Source of the DNA: Chloroflexi bacterium RIFCSPLOWO2_02_FULL_71_16 | GTDB lineage: Bacteria > Chloroflexota > Limnocylindria > P2-11E | NCBI GenBank assembly: GCA_001795345.1 | Contig: MGON01000016.1 | Coordinates: 1,127-9,695, forward strand | DNA: 8,569 nucleotides | Direction of reading: 5' to 3' | Part shown: positions 1-8,273 of the stretch, piece after piece | How positions within the stretch are numbered: the first letter of the stretch is position 1 | Layout: every line of letters starts with the position of its first letter | The notes under the pieces: generated by a model | Database searches by the model: none | Seen by the model: the letters and a program-made list of their open reading frames with translations, nothing else | Told to the model about the DNA's origin: nothing | Position numbers and translations under genes: made by a program

Positions 1-744
1 CTGACCCCGACCCCGACCCCGACCCCGACCGCCGCAGGGTCGGTGTGGCGGCCGCCGGTCGGCACGACCTGGCAGTGGCAGTTGACCGACCTGCCCGTTG
101 ACCTCTCGGTCGACGCCGAGGTGTATGACATCGACGGCTTCGAGAACAAGGCCAGCGTCGTCCAGGCGCTGCACGCACGCGGGCGCAAGGCCATCTGCTA
201 CATCAACGCCGGCGGATGGGAGGACTGGCGACCCGACGCGGGGGACTTCCCGGGGGCGGTGATCGGCGAGCCTCTGGACGGATGGCCAGGCGAGAAGTGG
301 CTCGACATCCGCCGCCTCGACGTGCTCGCGCCGATAGTGGGAGCGCGTCTCGACATGTGCCGCGACAAGGGCTTCGACGCGGTGGAGCCCGACAATATCG
401 ATGGCTACGCCAACGACACCGGCTTTCCGCTGAACTACGCGGATCAGCTGCGATACAACACATGGCTGGCCGAGGCGGCTCACGCACGCGGGCTCTCCAT
501 CGGGCTGAAGAACGACCTCGATCAGGTCGCGGACCTGCTGCCGCTCTTCGATTGGGCGCTCAGCGAGGAGTGCTTCGCCTACGACGAGTGCGATCTGCTC
601 GTACCGTTCATCACCGCCGGGAAGGCCGTCCTCCACGTCGAGTACGAGCTGAGCACGCGGAAGTTCTGCGCCGAGGCCCGCCAGCTTGGCTTCAGCTCGA
701 TGCGCAAAGGCTGGGATCTCGACGCCTCTCGGGAAGTCTGCTAG
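1..744 (+). CDS. GH114-type glycosidase (endo-alpha-1,4-polygalactosaminidase-like), 5' end missing
   Basis: The reading frame is open from the first base, so the true start and any signal peptide lie left of the window; GTG at 43 is only the first visible start codon. The visible part opens with an alternating Thr-Pro linker, typical of a tether behind a signal peptide or lipobox. A compact barrel domain of about 220 residues follows. Counting from GTG 43, GH114-like landmarks are WQWQL (10-14), EVYDIDGF (26-33), CYINAGGWEDWR (52-63), GFDAVEPDNID (110-120) and SEECFAYDEC (174-183). By comparison with the family, the likely catalytic acids are D117 and E175. Six cysteines, including the last residue, would suit a disulfide-bonded extracellular enzyme. 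Known members cleave galactosamine-containing exopolysaccharides; the substrate here is inferred. It ends with TAG 12 bp before the stop of the convergent LysR gene, so it is not part of the sdh operon. Confidence 0.82.
   Translation: MTPTPTPTPTAAGSVWRPPVGTTWQWQLTDLPVDLSVDAEVYDIDGFENKASVVQALHARGRKAICYINAGGWEDWRPDAGDFPGAVIGEPLDGWPGEKWLDIRRLDVLAPIVGARLDMCRDKGFDAVEPDNIDGYANDTGFPLNYADQLRYNTWLAEAAHARGLSIGLKNDLDQVADLLPLFDWALSEECFAYDECDLLVPFITAGKAVLHVEYELSTRKFCAEARQLGFSSMRKGWDLDASREVC
3..30 (+). repeat. GACCCC hexanucleotide tandem repeat coding a Thr-Pro linker
   Basis: GACCCC is repeated about 4.7 times without a mismatch, in frame with the glycosidase, giving alternating Thr-Pro codons (ACC CCG). 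The array may extend left of the window. It is both a microsatellite and a flexible extracellular linker, so copy number can change in steps of two residues without a frameshift. Confidence 0.9.
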
Positions 745-756
745 CCGGCGGACCGA

Positions 757-1692
757 TCAGCCTTCCGGCGACGTGATGAGCTCGAGCCCGGCCGGCATGC
801 CGGCCAGCCACTCGCGACCGCGGACGAGCGTGGTGACGCTCTCCATGAGCTCGCTCGCGGCGCGCGACGGCCGCCGGTCCTTCCGGTGCGCGAACGCGAC
901 CGTGCGGCCGAGCGAAGGGCGTGAGATGCGCACGGCGTGGAGCGCTCCCCCGTGCGTGACCACCATGCTCGGCACGACCGCAACGCCGATGCCTGCCGCG
1001 GCCATGCGGAGCACTCCGTCCATCTCGCCGCCCTCGACCGCGAATCGCGGGTGGAAGCCCGCGGCGGCGCACGCCGCGAGCGTCGTCTCCCGCAGGTCAT
1101 AGCCCTCGCGGAACATGACGAGTGGCACGTCCCGCAGCTCCGAGATCGTGACGCTCGCGCGAGCCGCCAGCGGATGCTCGAGCGCGACGGCGACGACGAG
1201 CTCCTCGCGCAGGAGCGGCTCCGTGACGAGCGACCGGTGCCGCACCGGCAGGATCACGAGCGCGAGGTCGAGCGCGCCTTCGTCCAGCTCGCGCACGAGG
1301 TCGCGCGAGCCCGCCTCCTGGAGCTTGAGGTCGATGCCCGGATACGCGGCGCGGAAGCGCGCGAGCGCTGCGGGCAGGATGGCCGTCGTGAGGCTCGGCG
1401 TCGCACCGACGCTGAGGCGGCCGCGGCGCAGTCCCGCGAGCTCGTGCACCTCGTCGACGGCGGTGTCGAGGTCGGAGAGCACGCGCCGGGCCCAGGGGAG
1501 CAGCGTCTCGCCCGCGGGCGTGAGCGCGACGTTCCCGCGCATGCGGTGGAAGAGCACGGCTCCGAGCTCCTCCTCGAGCAGGCGGATCTGCTTCGAGATG
1601 GACGGCTGCGCGACCGCCAGGTCGCGCGCGGCTCGGGTGAAGTGGCGCTGCTCGGCCACGGCCACGAAGTAGCGGAGCTGATGGATCTCCAC
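757..1692 (-). CDS. LysR-family transcriptional regulator
   Basis: A 311-residue protein of normal LysR length. Residues 1-60 form the winged helix-turn-helix: MEIHQLRYFVAVAEQRHFTR, then AVAQPSISKQIRLLEEELG (26-44) as the recognition region and LTPAGETLL closing the domain. A linker helix (about 65-90) leads to a two-lobed effector-binding domain beginning GRLSVGATPS (91-100). The start is GTG (1692-1690). No strong Shine-Dalgarno sequence precedes it and no other start lies immediately upstream in frame. It is divergent from the sdhC-sdhA-sdhB operon across 83 bp that contain a perfect LysR-type inverted repeat, the classic arrangement for autoregulation plus control of the neighbour. The effector is unknown; a dicarboxylate would suit the context but is only a guess. 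Confidence 0.95.
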   Translation of the reverse strand: MEIHQLRYFVAVAEQRHFTRAARDLAVAQPSISKQIRLLEEELGAVLFHRMRGNVALTPAGETLLPWARRVLSDLDTAVDEVHELAGLRRGRLSVGATPSLTTAILPAALARFRAAYPGIDLKLQEAGSRDLVRELDEGALDLALVILPVRHRSLVTEPLLREELVVAVALEHPLAARASVTISELRDVPLVMFREGYDLRETTLAACAAAGFHPRFAVEGGEMDGVLRMAAAGIGVAVVPSMVVTHGGALHAVRISRPSLGRTVAFAHRKDRRPSRAASELMESVTTLVRGREWLAGMPAGLELITSPEG

Positions 1693-1775: not shown

Positions 1776-2564
1776 GTGGCGGCGACGGCGGCCCCCCTCC
1801 GGCAGCGCGTCCTGCGCCGTGACATCTGGTGGCTCGAGCCGGCGGCCCTGGCCGTCCTCTTCGCGGTCTTCGTCGTCTACTCCGCCGTCGTCGGCGTCGC
1901 GAACGAGCACTACTACTACGGGCCGTACCTCTCGCCGTTCTACTCGCCCTGCATCACGGCCAACTGCGCGCACTTCACGTTCGGCGTACCGATCATCGGC
2001 GAGTGGTGGAACCTCGCTCCGGCCATCTGGATCGTGGCCTTCCCGCTCGCGTTCCGCGCCACCTGCTACTACTACCGCAAGGCCTACTACCGCTCGTACT
2101 TCTGGTCCCCGGCCGCCTGCTCCGTGCCCGACGCGCGCGCGAAGTACGGCGGCGAGACGAAGTTCCCGTTCGTCATGCAGAACATCCACCGCTACACGTG
2201 GTACCCGGCGGTCGCCCTGGTCTTCATCCTGTCGTACGACGTCATCCTCGCGTTCCGCTTCCCGACGGCGTCCGGCGGCGCCGCCTTCGGGATCGGCCTC
2301 GGGACCCTGCTCATGCTGGCGAACGTCGTGCTCATCGGGCTCTACACGTTCTCCTGCCATGCCTGCCGCTACCTCTTCGGCGGACGGCACGACCGCTTCC
2401 ACACCCGTCCGCTCGCGTACCGGCTGTGGTCGCTCATCTCCGTCCTGAACGGACGTCATGGCCAGTACGCGATCCTCAGCCTCATCAGCGTGGGGCTCAC
2501 CGATCTCTACATCCGCCTGCTGTCGATGGGCGTGATCCCGTTCGATCCGCGGATCGTCTTTTGA
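1776..2564 (+). CDS. sdhC: Complex II membrane anchor, Sdh1/type F-like SdhC with Cys/His clusters
   Basis: A 262-residue polytopic membrane protein that anchors the SdhA/SdhB dimer and exchanges electrons with quinone. Five hydrophobic segments are visible: about 21-42, 78-95, 140-160, 171-192 and 228-250. It is much longer than the four-helix SdhC or SdhD of E. coli and resembles the single fused-length anchor of mycobacterial Sdh1. Notable residues are C59, C64 and H66 in SPCITANCAHF, C97 in RATCYYYRKAYYR, H138, then C194, H195 and C197 in FSCHACRY, with H205 and H209 close behind. The mycobacterial Sdh1 anchor is reported to hold a Rieske-type [2Fe-2S] cluster inside the membrane; these two groups are the candidate ligands here, but which residues bind is inferred. 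The start is GTG 1776, without a Shine-Dalgarno sequence. It is first in the operon, 82 bp before sdhA. Confidence 0.85.
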   Translation: MAATAAPLRQRVLRRDIWWLEPAALAVLFAVFVVYSAVVGVANEHYYYGPYLSPFYSPCITANCAHFTFGVPIIGEWWNLAPAIWIVAFPLAFRATCYYYRKAYYRSYFWSPAACSVPDARAKYGGETKFPFVMQNIHRYTWYPAVALVFILSYDVILAFRFPTASGGAAFGIGLGTLLMLANVVLIGLYTFSCHACRYLFGGRHDRFHTRPLAYRLWSLISVLNGRHGQYAILSLISVGLTDLYIRLLSMGVIPFDPRIVF

Positions 2565-2646: not shown

Positions 2647-4491
2647 TTGAGCGCTAACTACACGTTCGACGTCGTCGTGATCGGCGCGGGCGGCGCCGGC
2701 ATCCGGGCGGCCATCGAGGCCCACCTGCAGGGCGCCCGGACGGCGCTCGTCTGCAAGTCGCTCTTCGGGAAGGCGCACACGGTCATGGCCGAGGGCGGCA
2801 TCGCGGCGGCGCTGCGGAACGTGTGGAAGGAGGACGGCTGGGACGTCCACTTCCGCGACACCATGCGCGGCGGCAAGCTCCTGAGCAACTGGCGCATGGC
2901 GCAGCTCCACGCGCAGGAGGCACCGGACCGCGTCCTCGAGCTCGAGGAATGGGGCGCGATGTTCGACCGCACGGCCGACGGGCTGATCCTCCAGCGCGAC
3001 TTCGGCGGTCACCGCTACGCGCGCCTGGCGCACGTCGGCGACCGCACGGGGCTCGAGATGATCCGCACGCTGCAGCAGAAGGCGGTCGCGCTCGGGATCG
3101 AGGTGCTCATGGAGTGCACGATCCAGCGGCTGCTCGTTGACGACGGGCGCGTCGCCGGCTGCGTCGGCTACTGGCGCCAGACGGGCGAGACGGTGACGCT
3201 CCGCGCCAAGGCGGTCGTCCTCGCGACCGGCGGCCTGGGGAAGGCCTGGCGCATCACGTCGAACTCCTGGGAGTACACGGGCGACGGGATGGCCATGGCC
3301 CTGGAAGCCGGCGCCGACCTGATCGACATGGAGTTCGTGCAGTTCCACCCCACGGGCATGGTGTGGCCGCCGAGCGTGCGCGGGATCCTCGTGACCGAGG
3401 GCGTGCGCGGCGACGGCGGCACGCTCCGGAACAGCACCGGCGAGCGCTTCATGTTCCGGTACATCCCGGAGTTCTTCCGCGCCGAAACGGCCGACACCGA
3501 GGCCGAGGCCGACGCGTGGTACGAGGACAAGAAGAACCGGCGCACGCCCGACCTGCTTCCGCGCGACGAGGTCGCGCGCGCCATCCACGCAGAGGTGAGG
3601 GCGGGGCGGGGAAGCCCCCACGGCGGGGTCTTCCTCGACATCGCCTCGCGCCGCCCGGCCGAATACATCAAGAGGCGGCTGCCCTCGATGTACCACCAGT
3701 TCAAGGAGCTGGCGGACATCGACATCACCAAGGACGCGATGGAGGTGGGTCCGACCTGCCACTACGCCATGGGCGGCATCCGGGTCGATGCCGACACCGC
3801 GGCCACGACGCTCGAAGGCCTTTACGCCGCCGGCGAGGTCGCCGCGGGACTGCACGGCGCCAACCGCCTCGGCGGGAACTCCCTCTCCGACCTGCTCGTG
3901 TTCGGCCGGCGCGCCGGGCTGTACGCGGCCGAGTACGCGAAGGGCCGGCCCAAGCAGGCCGCCGTCGACCGCGCCGCCGTCGAGGCGGCGTCACGCCGTC
4001 TCGCCGAGCCGCTCGAACGCAAGACCGGGGAGGACCCGTACGCGATCCACGCCGATCTCCAGGAGGTCATGCACACGCTCGTCGGGATCATCCGCACCCA
4101 GGCCGATCTCGACGAGGCGCTCATCCGCATCGCGGCTCTTCGCGAGCGGCAGACCCGTGTCGCCGCATGGGGGAACCGGCGGTACAACCCCGGCTGGAAC
4201 CTCTCCCTCGATCTCGAGGCCATGCTCACGGTCTCCGAGGCGGTCGCCAGGTCCGCCGCGATGCGCACCGAGAGCCGCGGCGGCCACACGCGCGACGACT
4301 TCCCGAAGCCGGATCCCGAGTGGGCCAAGGTGAACGTCGTGACCCGCAAGCGCGACGGGCGGCTCGAGCTGGCGAAGGAGCCGCTCTCCGAGATGCCCCC
4401 GGAGCTCAGGGACCTCGTCGGCGAGCAGGCCAAGCCGCACGCGGAGTCGACGGACATGGAGGCGACCGTGCCTGCCGGGAAGCCCGTATGA
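2647..4491 (+). CDS. sdhA: Succinate dehydrogenase/fumarate reductase flavoprotein subunit
   Basis: A 614-residue catalytic subunit that interconverts succinate and fumarate on the inner face of the membrane. The N-terminal dinucleotide fold is VVVIGAGGAGIRAAIEA (9-25). H44 in GKAHTVMAEGG is the expected site of covalent FAD attachment. Active-site signatures are HPTGM (234-238), GILVTEGVRGDGG (246-258), LPRDEVARAI with the proton-relay arginine R306, HYAMGGI (372-378) and ANRLGGNSLSD with R407. The C-terminal helical domain (about 440-560) includes TESRGGHTRDDFP. The start is TTG 2647: no ATG or GTG lies in frame in the spacer upstream, and the residues just before the FAD motif have the usual length. 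No Shine-Dalgarno sequence is visible. Its last codons overlap the sdhB start by 4 bp (ATGA). The direction of the reaction in the cell cannot be read from sequence; succinate oxidation is the default. Confidence 0.97.
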   Translation: MSANYTFDVVVIGAGGAGIRAAIEAHLQGARTALVCKSLFGKAHTVMAEGGIAAALRNVWKEDGWDVHFRDTMRGGKLLSNWRMAQLHAQEAPDRVLELEEWGAMFDRTADGLILQRDFGGHRYARLAHVGDRTGLEMIRTLQQKAVALGIEVLMECTIQRLLVDDGRVAGCVGYWRQTGETVTLRAKAVVLATGGLGKAWRITSNSWEYTGDGMAMALEAGADLIDMEFVQFHPTGMVWPPSVRGILVTEGVRGDGGTLRNSTGERFMFRYIPEFFRAETADTEAEADAWYEDKKNRRTPDLLPRDEVARAIHAEVRAGRGSPHGGVFLDIASRRPAEYIKRRLPSMYHQFKELADIDITKDAMEVGPTCHYAMGGIRVDADTAATTLEGLYAAGEVAAGLHGANRLGGNSLSDLLVFGRRAGLYAAEYAKGRPKQAAVDRAAVEAASRRLAEPLERKTGEDPYAIHADLQEVMHTLVGIIRTQADLDEALIRIAALRERQTRVAAWGNRRYNPGWNLSLDLEAMLTVSEAVARSAAMRTESRGGHTRDDFPKPDPEWAKVNVVTRKRDGRLELAKEPLSEMPPELRDLVGEQAKPHAESTDMEATVPAGKPV

Positions 4492-5312
4492 CGGCGCGGA
4501 GCGGGTCCAACGGCGGCGCGCGCGACGTGACCGTCCGGGTCTGGCGCGGCGAGGACCGCGCGAGCGGCGGCTTCGTCCAGTACGACGTTCCGGCCGATCC
4601 AGGAATGGTCGTGCTCGACGTCATGTTCCGCGTCCAGGCGCTCCGCGCCCCCGACCTCGCGGTGCGCTGGAACTGCAAGGCCGGCAAGTGCGGCTCGTGC
4701 AGTGCCGAGATCAACGGGCGTCCGAAGCTCATGTGCATGACGCGCGTCTCGAGCCTCCCGGAGGGGGAGCCCATCACCATCGCGCCGATGGCGACCTTCC
4801 CCGTCATCAAGGACCTCGTGACGGACGTGTCCTACAACTACGAGAAGGCGAAGACCATCCCGGCGTTCAGGCCCGCTCCCCTGGAGCCCGACGGCACGCG
4901 GCGCATGTACCAGGAGGAGGTCGACCGGGTCCAGGAGTTCCGCAAGTGCATCGAGTGCTTCATGTGCCAGAACGTCTGCCACGTCATCCGCGACCACGAG
5001 GAGAACAAGGAGGCGTTCTCGGGGCCGCGCTTCTTCGTGCGCCTGGCCGAGCTCGAGATGCACCCCCTCGACACGCACGACCGCATCGAGCTCACCCGCG
5101 CCAAGCACGGCCTGGGCTTCTGCAACATCACCAAGTGCTGCACCGAGGTCTGTCCCGAGTCGATCCACATCACCGACAACGCGATCATCCCGCTCAAGGA
5201 GCGCGTGGTGACCGAGTTCTACGACCCGCTCGCCTGGGCCAAGCGCCGCCTGTTCGGGCAGCGGCCCAGGCAGCTAGGGGAGAAGGAGCCGGCGGCGCCG
5301 TCGGACCGCTGA
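4488..5312 (+). CDS. sdhB: Succinate dehydrogenase/fumarate reductase iron-sulfur subunit
   Basis: A 274-residue electron-transfer subunit linking SdhA to the membrane anchor. The plant-type ferredoxin domain supplies the [2Fe-2S] ligands C63, C68 and C71 (NCKAGKCGSC) and C83. The C-terminal domain has C154, C157, C160 and C164 (CIECFMCQNVC), then C212, C218 and C222 in CNITKCCTEVCP. By alignment with E. coli SdhB, C154, C157, C160 and C222 bind [4Fe-4S], and C164, C212 and C218 bind [3Fe-4S]. C217 is an extra cysteine next to a ligand. The start is ATG 4488, overlapping the sdhA stop as ATGA, a typical translational-coupling junction. The same frame stays open far upstream inside sdhA, but that part is an arginine-rich out-of-frame reading of sdhA and is not counted. 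The basic tail (WAKRRLFGQRPRQ) is unexceptional. Confidence 0.97.
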   Translation: MTARSGSNGGARDVTVRVWRGEDRASGGFVQYDVPADPGMVVLDVMFRVQALRAPDLAVRWNCKAGKCGSCSAEINGRPKLMCMTRVSSLPEGEPITIAPMATFPVIKDLVTDVSYNYEKAKTIPAFRPAPLEPDGTRRMYQEEVDRVQEFRKCIECFMCQNVCHVIRDHEENKEAFSGPRFFVRLAELEMHPLDTHDRIELTRAKHGLGFCNITKCCTEVCPESIHITDNAIIPLKERVVTEFYDPLAWAKRRLFGQRPRQLGEKEPAAPSDR

Positions 5313-5560: not shown

Positions 5561-6349
5561 GTGCCCACCCTGGCCGACCTCCGCGCCGAGCGCATCCGGC
5601 TCTGCCGGCTGACGGCGGACCGCGCTCTCGAGAGCGTGGACGACGCCGAGGCGTTCCTCCATGACCGCCGGATGCTCACTTTGGTGGCGGACTCGTCCCT
5701 CCCGAGCCTCTTCGGCGCGACCCATGAGGAGCCGTACGCCGCGGTGAAAGCGGGCTTCGGCTCCTGGCCGAAGACCAAGTGGCGCTGGGGCGGCGAGCTC
5801 GCGGGCCGCACCGGGGTCCTCACGGCGAAGATCCACCGCGGGAAGCTCGTGTTCCTGTCCCGCGAGGCCGCCTCCATCGCGGACCCGCTCTGCCGCGAGT
5901 CCCTCGCGCGCGCGGCGGACGGCGAGCTCGGCCCCGAGGCGGCGACCATCGTCAGCCACCTCGCGGCGGCCGGCCCATCGAGCGTCGACGACCTCAAGAC
6001 GGAGCTCGGCCTCGACGCCAAGACGCTGCGCTCGGCGCGCGAGAAGCTCGAGTCTTCGGGCGCGGTCGTCTCGAAGGGAACGGTGGTGCCCGCGGCGATC
6101 GAGCCGGGGCACAAGCATTCGAGCACCCTCGCGCGCTGGGATCAGGCCTTCACGCAGCGCCGCAAGGGCTCCGCCGCGGCGTCGCTCGACGAGCTGGTGG
6201 TGCTCGGGGTCCGCGCGACCGTCGTCACGCACCAGGAGGAGATCCGGACCTGGTTCCACTGGCCGGTGACCTCGGGCGCCATCGAGGGTCTGGTGCGCTC
6301 CGGACGCCTCTCGCGTCCCGCTCCCGGCTGGGTCGCGGCGCCGCAGTGA
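5561..6349 (+). CDS. AlkZ-related winged-helix protein
   Basis: A 262-residue soluble protein without a signal peptide or membrane segment. The pattern resembles the family annotated as AlkZ-related: a leading region with FLHDRRMLTLVADSSLPSLF (32-51), a tryptophan-rich stretch SWPKTKWRWGGEL (68-80), the segment GVLTAKIHRGKLVFLS (85-100), then a winged helix-turn-helix at about 123-178 (GPEAATIVSHLAAAGPSSVD, then DAKTLRSAREKLESSGAVV), and ARWDQAF (191-197). AlkZ (YcaQ) is a DNA glycosylase acting on crosslinks and bulky alkylated bases through a QxQ motif; no QxQ is present here, so glycosylase activity should not be assumed. A second small helical domain fills about 205-260. GTG 5561 is the chosen start, with no strong Shine-Dalgarno sequence. 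It converges on the dehydrogenase gene with 9 bp between stops. Family assignment is from memory of the pattern and is moderate. Confidence 0.55.
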   Translation: MPTLADLRAERIRLCRLTADRALESVDDAEAFLHDRRMLTLVADSSLPSLFGATHEEPYAAVKAGFGSWPKTKWRWGGELAGRTGVLTAKIHRGKLVFLSREAASIADPLCRESLARAADGELGPEAATIVSHLAAAGPSSVDDLKTELGLDAKTLRSAREKLESSGAVVSKGTVVPAAIEPGHKHSSTLARWDQAFTQRRKGSAAASLDELVVLGVRATVVTHQEEIRTWFHWPVTSGAIEGLVRSGRLSRPAPGWVAAPQ

Positions 6350-6358
6350 CGTGACGCG

Positions 6359-7249
6359 CTAGCCGGACCTCTCCTCGAGGTCGCGCTTCCGCCACCGCAT
6401 GAGCTCGGCATCCCGCTCCGACGCGAGGGAGCGCAGTGCTTCCGCAGGCGGCAGGTCGATGCGGGCGAGCGCCTCGGGATCGACGTCGCGGCCGAGCTCG
6501 GCGAACAGGAGTCGCGCGATCTTCACGAACGTCTCGCGGCCGCCGAGGGCCATCGTCTCGAACGGCCCGATGAGGCTCCAGCGGCGGCCGATGGCGCGCT
6601 TCACGGCGAGGTCGACGGCGGCGGGATCGACGCCGTGCTCCGTCACCAGTCGCGCGGCCTCGCGCAGGAGGGCGAACTGGAGGCGGTTCCAGAGGAATCC
6701 CGGGATGTCCGGAGCGATGATCGGCTCCTTGCCCATGTCGCGGAGCAGCCCGACGATCATCTCGACGTGGCGCCGCTCGGTGCGCGGGCCGGGGATGACC
6801 TCGACCGCAGGCATGAGGATCGCCGGGTTCGCGTAGTGGGTCCCCAGCGTTCGCTCGGGCGCGCGCGCCGCCTCGCCGAGGGTCGCGATGGGGATGGACG
6901 ACGTGTTAGAGCAGAGGATCGCGTCCGGGGCCGCGCGCGCTGCGGTGTCCAGGACGTCGGCCTTCGCGCCGAGGTCCTCGGCGACCGACTCAACGATCAC
7001 GTCGCGGCCCTCGCACGCCGCGCGCAGGTCGGTCGAGACCCGCATGCGCGGCAGCGCGGCTTCGCCCTTCGCCACCGGGACGAGCCCGTGCGAGATCAGG
7101 CCGCGGATCGCCGCGTGCGCGCGGCCCAGGGCCGCGTCGGCGCTCGGCTGGGACCGCGTGACGAGGACGACCTCGTGGCCGGCCAGCGCGTACTCGGCGC
7201 CGATCTGGGCGCCCATGAGCCCGGCGCCCACGACCGCGACCTTCTTCAC
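6359..7249 (-). CDS. 3-hydroxyacyl-CoA dehydrogenase family oxidoreductase
   Basis: A 296-residue single-unit NAD(P)-dependent dehydrogenase of usual length for the short 3-hydroxybutyryl-CoA dehydrogenase or lambda-crystallin class. The Rossmann motif is VAVVGAGLMGAQIG (4-17). Catalytic landmarks are SNTSSIPI (114-121), GTHYANP with H138, E150 in AVEVIPG as its partner, and the helical-domain entry PGFLWNRLQFALLREA (183-198). After the second strand the usual acidic residue is replaced by VTRS (30-33), which may favour NADP. The start is GTG 7249, 19 bp after the malate dehydrogenase stop, so it is the last gene of a minus-strand operon with mdh and a RidA-type gene. The substrate cannot be fixed: a 3-hydroxyacyl-CoA, or a small hydroxy acid as in lambda-crystallin/gulonate dehydrogenases, is possible. 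Confidence 0.88.
   Translation of the reverse strand: MKKVAVVGAGLMGAQIGAEYALAGHEVVLVTRSQPSADAALGRAHAAIRGLISHGLVPVAKGEAALPRMRVSTDLRAACEGRDVIVESVAEDLGAKADVLDTAARAAPDAILCSNTSSIPIATLGEAARAPERTLGTHYANPAILMPAVEVIPGPRTERRHVEMIVGLLRDMGKEPIIAPDIPGFLWNRLQFALLREAARLVTEHGVDPAAVDLAVKRAIGRRWSLIGPFETMALGGRETFVKIARLLFAELGRDVDPEALARIDLPPAEALRSLASERDAELMRWRKRDLEERSG

Positions 7250-7268: not shown

Positions 7269-8273
<1,005 letters not shown>

Follow-up and report, generated by a model that had tools for sequence, protein, structure and literature searches.

Conserved cysteines and histidines as candidate ligands of a probable Rieske-type cluster in a class F complex II anchor from Chloroflexi

An 8,569-nucleotide stretch of the genome of Chloroflexi bacterium RIFCSPLOWO2_02_FULL_71_16 (the window) carries an sdhC-sdhA-sdhB operon. 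The SdhC encoded there serves as membrane anchor to a class F complex II (succinate dehydrogenase) whose three subunits are all homologous to those of Sdh1 of Mycobacterium smegmatis. From homology, residue conservation and predicted structures, we consider it likely that H138, H228 and two cysteines, probably C97 and C194, bind a Rieske-type [2Fe-2S] cluster in this anchor, which would pass electrons from SdhB to quinone; the cluster itself likely lies in the membrane region of the protein. An original prediction for the same DNA had named a type F enzyme and had drawn the ligands from two groups of residues, C59-x4-C64-x-H66 and C194-H195-x-C197 with the following H205 and H209. What is added here is a corrected candidate ligand set for the class F SdhC family.

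Assignment to class F

In comparisons with the Protein Data Bank (PDB), the sole sequence match of window SdhC was the anchor of M. smegmatis Sdh1 (7d6v_C, 210 bits). Its two partner subunits were also matched best by chains of that structure (Table 1), the runners-up being 6lum_A at 333 bits for SdhA and 1kf6_B at 82 bits for SdhB. The type F assignment is thus borne out by sequence, and by fold as well: Sdh1 (PDB 7d6v, 7d6x) likewise has one anchor and the same predicted fold, with an SdhC identity of about 40%. The window enzyme adds one more class F complex II from outside mycobacteria and is ordinary in kind. At E 0.001 its SdhC matched no Pfam family, Sdh_cyt (PF01127) and the Rieske families included, and no NCBIfam family.

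The sdhC frame is translated without interruption over 262 residues, with no internal stop, and its GTG start lines up in frame with the ATG at which three close relatives (P0006, P0009 and P0010) begin. As originally described, sdhA and sdhB follow directly on the same strand. A spacing of 82 bases separates sdhC from sdhA, the ATG of sdhB overlaps the sdhA stop, and no second anchor gene lies between the three genes.

Conserved residues and the candidate ligand cage

Conservation was read from a main alignment of 239 rows, comprising the window protein, 119 of the 120 listed database relatives, 118 loci and residues 19-267 of M. smegmatis SdhC, the only stretch of that protein compared. P0002, a copy of the window, and the window's own entry L001 were excluded; among 20 sequences added after the count, L139 is identical to L023, leaving 19 new ones. 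C97, C115, H138, C194 and H228 were invariant across all 239 rows and all 20 later rows. Four of these (C97, C115, H138 and H228) are absent from the eight residues first proposed as ligands, of which C194 alone never varies. H195 was His in 238/239 rows and in 19/20 later ones. The outer cysteines C59 and C64 were each Cys in 210 of the 239 rows and in 4 of the 20 later rows, one or both being missing from 29 rows (the incomplete P0044 counted among them) and from 16 later rows, so that entire branches are without them. C197 was Cys in 165/239 and 2/20, and His occupied the positions of H66, H209 and H205 in 130, 91 and 14 of the 239 rows, respectively.

In the alignment with M. smegmatis SdhC, all six Cys of the mycobacterial stretch are Cys in the window protein, and three of its ten His are shared (H155, H207 and H240, equivalent to H138, H195 and H228). 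C59, C64, C194, H195 and C197 accordingly have counterparts there; no His stands at the positions of H66, H205 and H209. The two groups themselves were placed correctly: C59-x4-C64-x-H66 comes after the first predicted helix (residues 20-42), C194-H195-x-C197 stands at the end of the fourth membrane helix, with H205 and H209 beyond it, and an AlphaFold2 model of the protein gives the five long membrane helices that had been described. The loop with C59-C64-H66 (residues 41-80) holds no Lys or Arg, and the family means for these two residues combined are 0.5 in loop 1, 5.75 in loop 2 and 6.25 in loop 4. Under the positive-inside rule, C59-C64-H66 is predicted to lie outside and C97, C115, H138, C194-H209 and H228 inside, which would put C59-C64-H66 and C194-H209 on opposite membrane faces. 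With its two groups predicted to be so separated, and with most of its residues varying or missing among relatives, a cluster held by Cys and His from C59, C64, H66, C194, H195, C197, H205 and H209 is hardly credible, even though five of the eight recur in M. smegmatis.

If the ligands are the same family-wide, as homology suggests, the two His ligands would be H138 and H228, because the position of H195 is Asn in two anchors, L119 and L138. These two proteins offer a natural test of a ligand role for H195. On the same premise, the two Cys ligands would be drawn from C97, C115 and C194.

Apart from C115, the invariant residues fall into a repeated pattern, C-x3-R followed by N-x(1,2)-H, found once in each of two hairpins formed by transmembrane helices (TM) 2 and 3 and by TM4 and TM5. 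In the first, C97, R101 and H138 were present in 239/239 rows and N136 in 238/239; in the second, C194 and H228 were present in 239/239, R198 in 237/239 and N225 in 238/239. The pattern was intact in both hairpins in 235/239 rows. When the letters of the 35 most conserved columns were shuffled, both motifs occurred twice in 1 of 200,000 trials, a frequency that applies to a motif picked post hoc. In the window model, TM2 is interrupted at C97 (helices 83-95 and 98-108) and TM4 at C194 (helices 175-192 and 195-202); H228 starts helix 228-251, and H138 lies inside helix 131-158. The same features appear at C90, C189, H226 and H133 in an AlphaFold2 model of L112, a remote homologue lacking the outer Cys pair, for which 7d6v_C was the only Foldseek match under E 0.001. 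The two models are not independent because their alignments share most rows. From these observations we infer that H138 and H228, joined by two Cys of which C97 and C194 are the likeliest, form a cage within the two modules.

Several points weigh against this cage or against the wider assignment. C115 is no less invariant than C97 and C194 and is predicted to be on the inner side; in the same enzyme and with the same two His, it could replace either of them if the inner TM2-TM3 loop folded back over the cluster. C97 and C194 stand at helix breaks in matching motifs, whereas the loop with C115 is modelled at low confidence (Table 1) and has no counterpart in the second half of the protein. We favour C97 and C194 and regard C115 as an unlikely, though live, alternative. 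Furthermore, the AlphaFold2 models contain no cofactor. A review counts six helices for class F, against the five long ones modelled here; the count becomes six if residues 212-225 are included. An internal duplication of the two hairpins was also considered, and the profile comparison was not significant (local E 0.28), its alignment pairing H138 with H228. The motif pairing of the two hairpins holds; a shared origin of the two halves is not demonstrated. Finally, one locus (L117, in G036) had no SdhA detected in the adjoining 1.4 kb, unlike the other loci that were long enough.

An anchor with no iron-sulfur cluster, holding heme or nothing and keeping its invariant residues for structural reasons, was weighed as well. 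Invariant His close to where helices begin might in principle bind heme, and heme-bearing anchors of the Sdh_cyt family are, like the window protein, succinate dehydrogenase membrane anchors encoded within an sdh operon. In contrast to these, window SdhC matches no heme anchor family in Pfam or NCBIfam, and Sdh_cyt was not found in the host genome (78% complete). The window protein retains all Cys of the M. smegmatis stretch, and three Cys are invariant in the family; we judge an anchor devoid of a cluster very improbable.

In soluble and bc-type Rieske proteins, the ligands lie in C-x-H and C-x2-H loops. The cluster proposed for window SdhC would share with these proteins its type, two Cys plus two His, and would differ in having its ligands at helix ends rather than in such loops. 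It would sit, with its ligands, where the TM2-TM5 bundle opens to the cytoplasm, each of the hairpins TM2-TM3 and TM4-TM5 supplying one Cys and one His. Electrons would run from succinate to the FAD of SdhA, through the iron-sulfur clusters of SdhB to the SdhC cluster, and on to quinone. According to the abstract of the Sdh1 structure paper, a mutant of two His ligands reportedly lost quinone reduction. A literature search whose reach ended short of that primary paper found no ligand numbers for the Sdh1 SdhC cluster.

Distribution and gene order

The design had been called rare, which is doubtful: a protein search returned at least 7927 relatives at E 0.001 or better among 8000 scored candidates, and a scan of named genomes returned at least 581 relatives in 590 stretches. 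Occurrence beyond mycobacteria was supported by relatives labelled Chloroflexi, Actinomycetota, Rokubacteria/NC10, Acidobacteria and Deltaproteobacteria. The titles of the 80 loci kept from the named-genome scan include Chloroflexi, Streptomyces, Embleya, Jiangella, Nocardioides, Actinacidiphila, Frankiales and Acidimicrobiales, and further Rokubacteria, NC10, Acidobacteria, Deltaproteobacteria and Myxococcaceae, several being metagenome bins. Among the matches listed, most of the closest named proteins carry a Limnocylindria or Chloroflexi label, while Methylomirabilota and Gemmatimonadales occur once each. Within the host's phylum, the anchor was present in 61/301 and 80/400 genomes in two overlapping draws. 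One genome (G013) carries two class F anchors, on contigs C15 and C24 (L092 and L143). The SdhC of a genome from the host's own family (G369; L139) is the one identical to L023, from Chloroflexi UBA4730. A literature search that did not extend to the primary Sdh1 and complex II module papers found no statement on class F spread or on a ligand pattern.

Among 119 loci, sdhC-sdhA-sdhB was the gene order in 78. Another 39 showed sdhC-sdhA alone, on stretches whose length left no room for an sdhB to be found. Two showed sdhC alone: L117, described above, and L107, whose stretch ends just after sdhC. In a 42-row tree rooted at the midpoint, the outer Cys pair requires two changes; the clade bearing the pair includes M. 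smegmatis, which is placed there beside Jiangella and Streptomyces. Because most of the divergent rows come from the host's phylum, the tree says nothing firm on the origin of the family.

Genomic setting and role in the host's family

The features of the window are collected in Table 1. The LysR-type regulator diverges from sdhC over an 83-base gap and may regulate sdhCAB, which is a guess. Malate dehydrogenase near sdhCAB brings two functions of the tricarboxylic acid (TCA) cycle onto one stretch, on opposite strands.

Table 1. Features of the window and of its SdhC, in window coordinates (pLDDT, predicted local distance difference test)
Feature	Position	Strand	Remarks
GH114 glycoside hydrolase domain	1-744	+	296 bits; cut by window start
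LysR-type regulator	757-1692	-	
sdhC, class F complex II membrane anchor	1776..2564	+	262 aa, GTG start
C59-x4-C64-x-H66, outer loop	1950..1973	+	probably not cluster ligands
First half-cage, C97-x3-R101 ... N136-x-H138	2064..2189	+	TM2 break and TM3 start; would give one Cys and one His ligand
C115, inner loop TM2-TM3	2118..2120	+	invariant; loop pLDDT 58-68; alternative candidate Cys ligand
Second half-cage, C194-x3-R198 ... N225-x2-H228	2355..2459	+	TM4 break and TM5 start; would give the other Cys and His ligand
sdhA, flavoprotein subunit	2647..4491	+	TTG start; 7d6v_A 828 bits; NF005866 over cut-off
sdhB, iron-sulfur subunit	4488..5312	+	12 Cys; 7d6v_B 363 bits (match from residue 23 on)
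AlkZ-related protein	5561-6349	+	PF24741 36 bits; weak Csa3 match, 25 bits
3-hydroxyacyl-CoA dehydrogenase-like protein	6359-7249	-	
Malate dehydrogenase	7269-8273	-	over NCBIfam cut-off

Of 28 genomes of the host's family (f1), the class F anchor was found in 25, two of them with fragments; these include all nine genomes with completeness of 90% or more and little contamination. SdhB exceeded its cut-off in 24 of the 28, with a second copy in G171 only, and was not found in one anchor-bearing genome (G163, 92% complete). These counts indicate that class F is nearly always the sole complex II there, as far as seen. NuoH of complex I (PF00146) was present in 28/28. MenB and MenD each exceeded the cut-off in one genome, G415 (66% complete), in which the class F anchor was not found, and MqnA/D (PF02621) appeared in 0/28, in a search directed at the menaquinone routes alone. 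Tentatively, and as a possibility that we consider doubtful, the window enzyme may be a heme-free complex II with its cluster in a pseudo-twofold cage of two C-x3-R...N-x(1,2)-H modules, and the only complex II of a Chloroflexota family in which neither known route to menaquinone operates; the quinone receiving its electrons would then be scavenged or made by an undescribed pathway.

Cumulatively, these results indicate that class F is widespread outside mycobacteria, in a family of thousands of sequences, and that its members can do without the outer Cys pair seen in the M. smegmatis branch. The SdhC family was matched here by no model of Pfam or NCBIfam, and many sources label its members 'hypothetical protein'; carrier genomes can therefore be misread as having no complex II anchor. 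The corrected ligand set changes which residues to mutate for cluster tests in class F SdhC.
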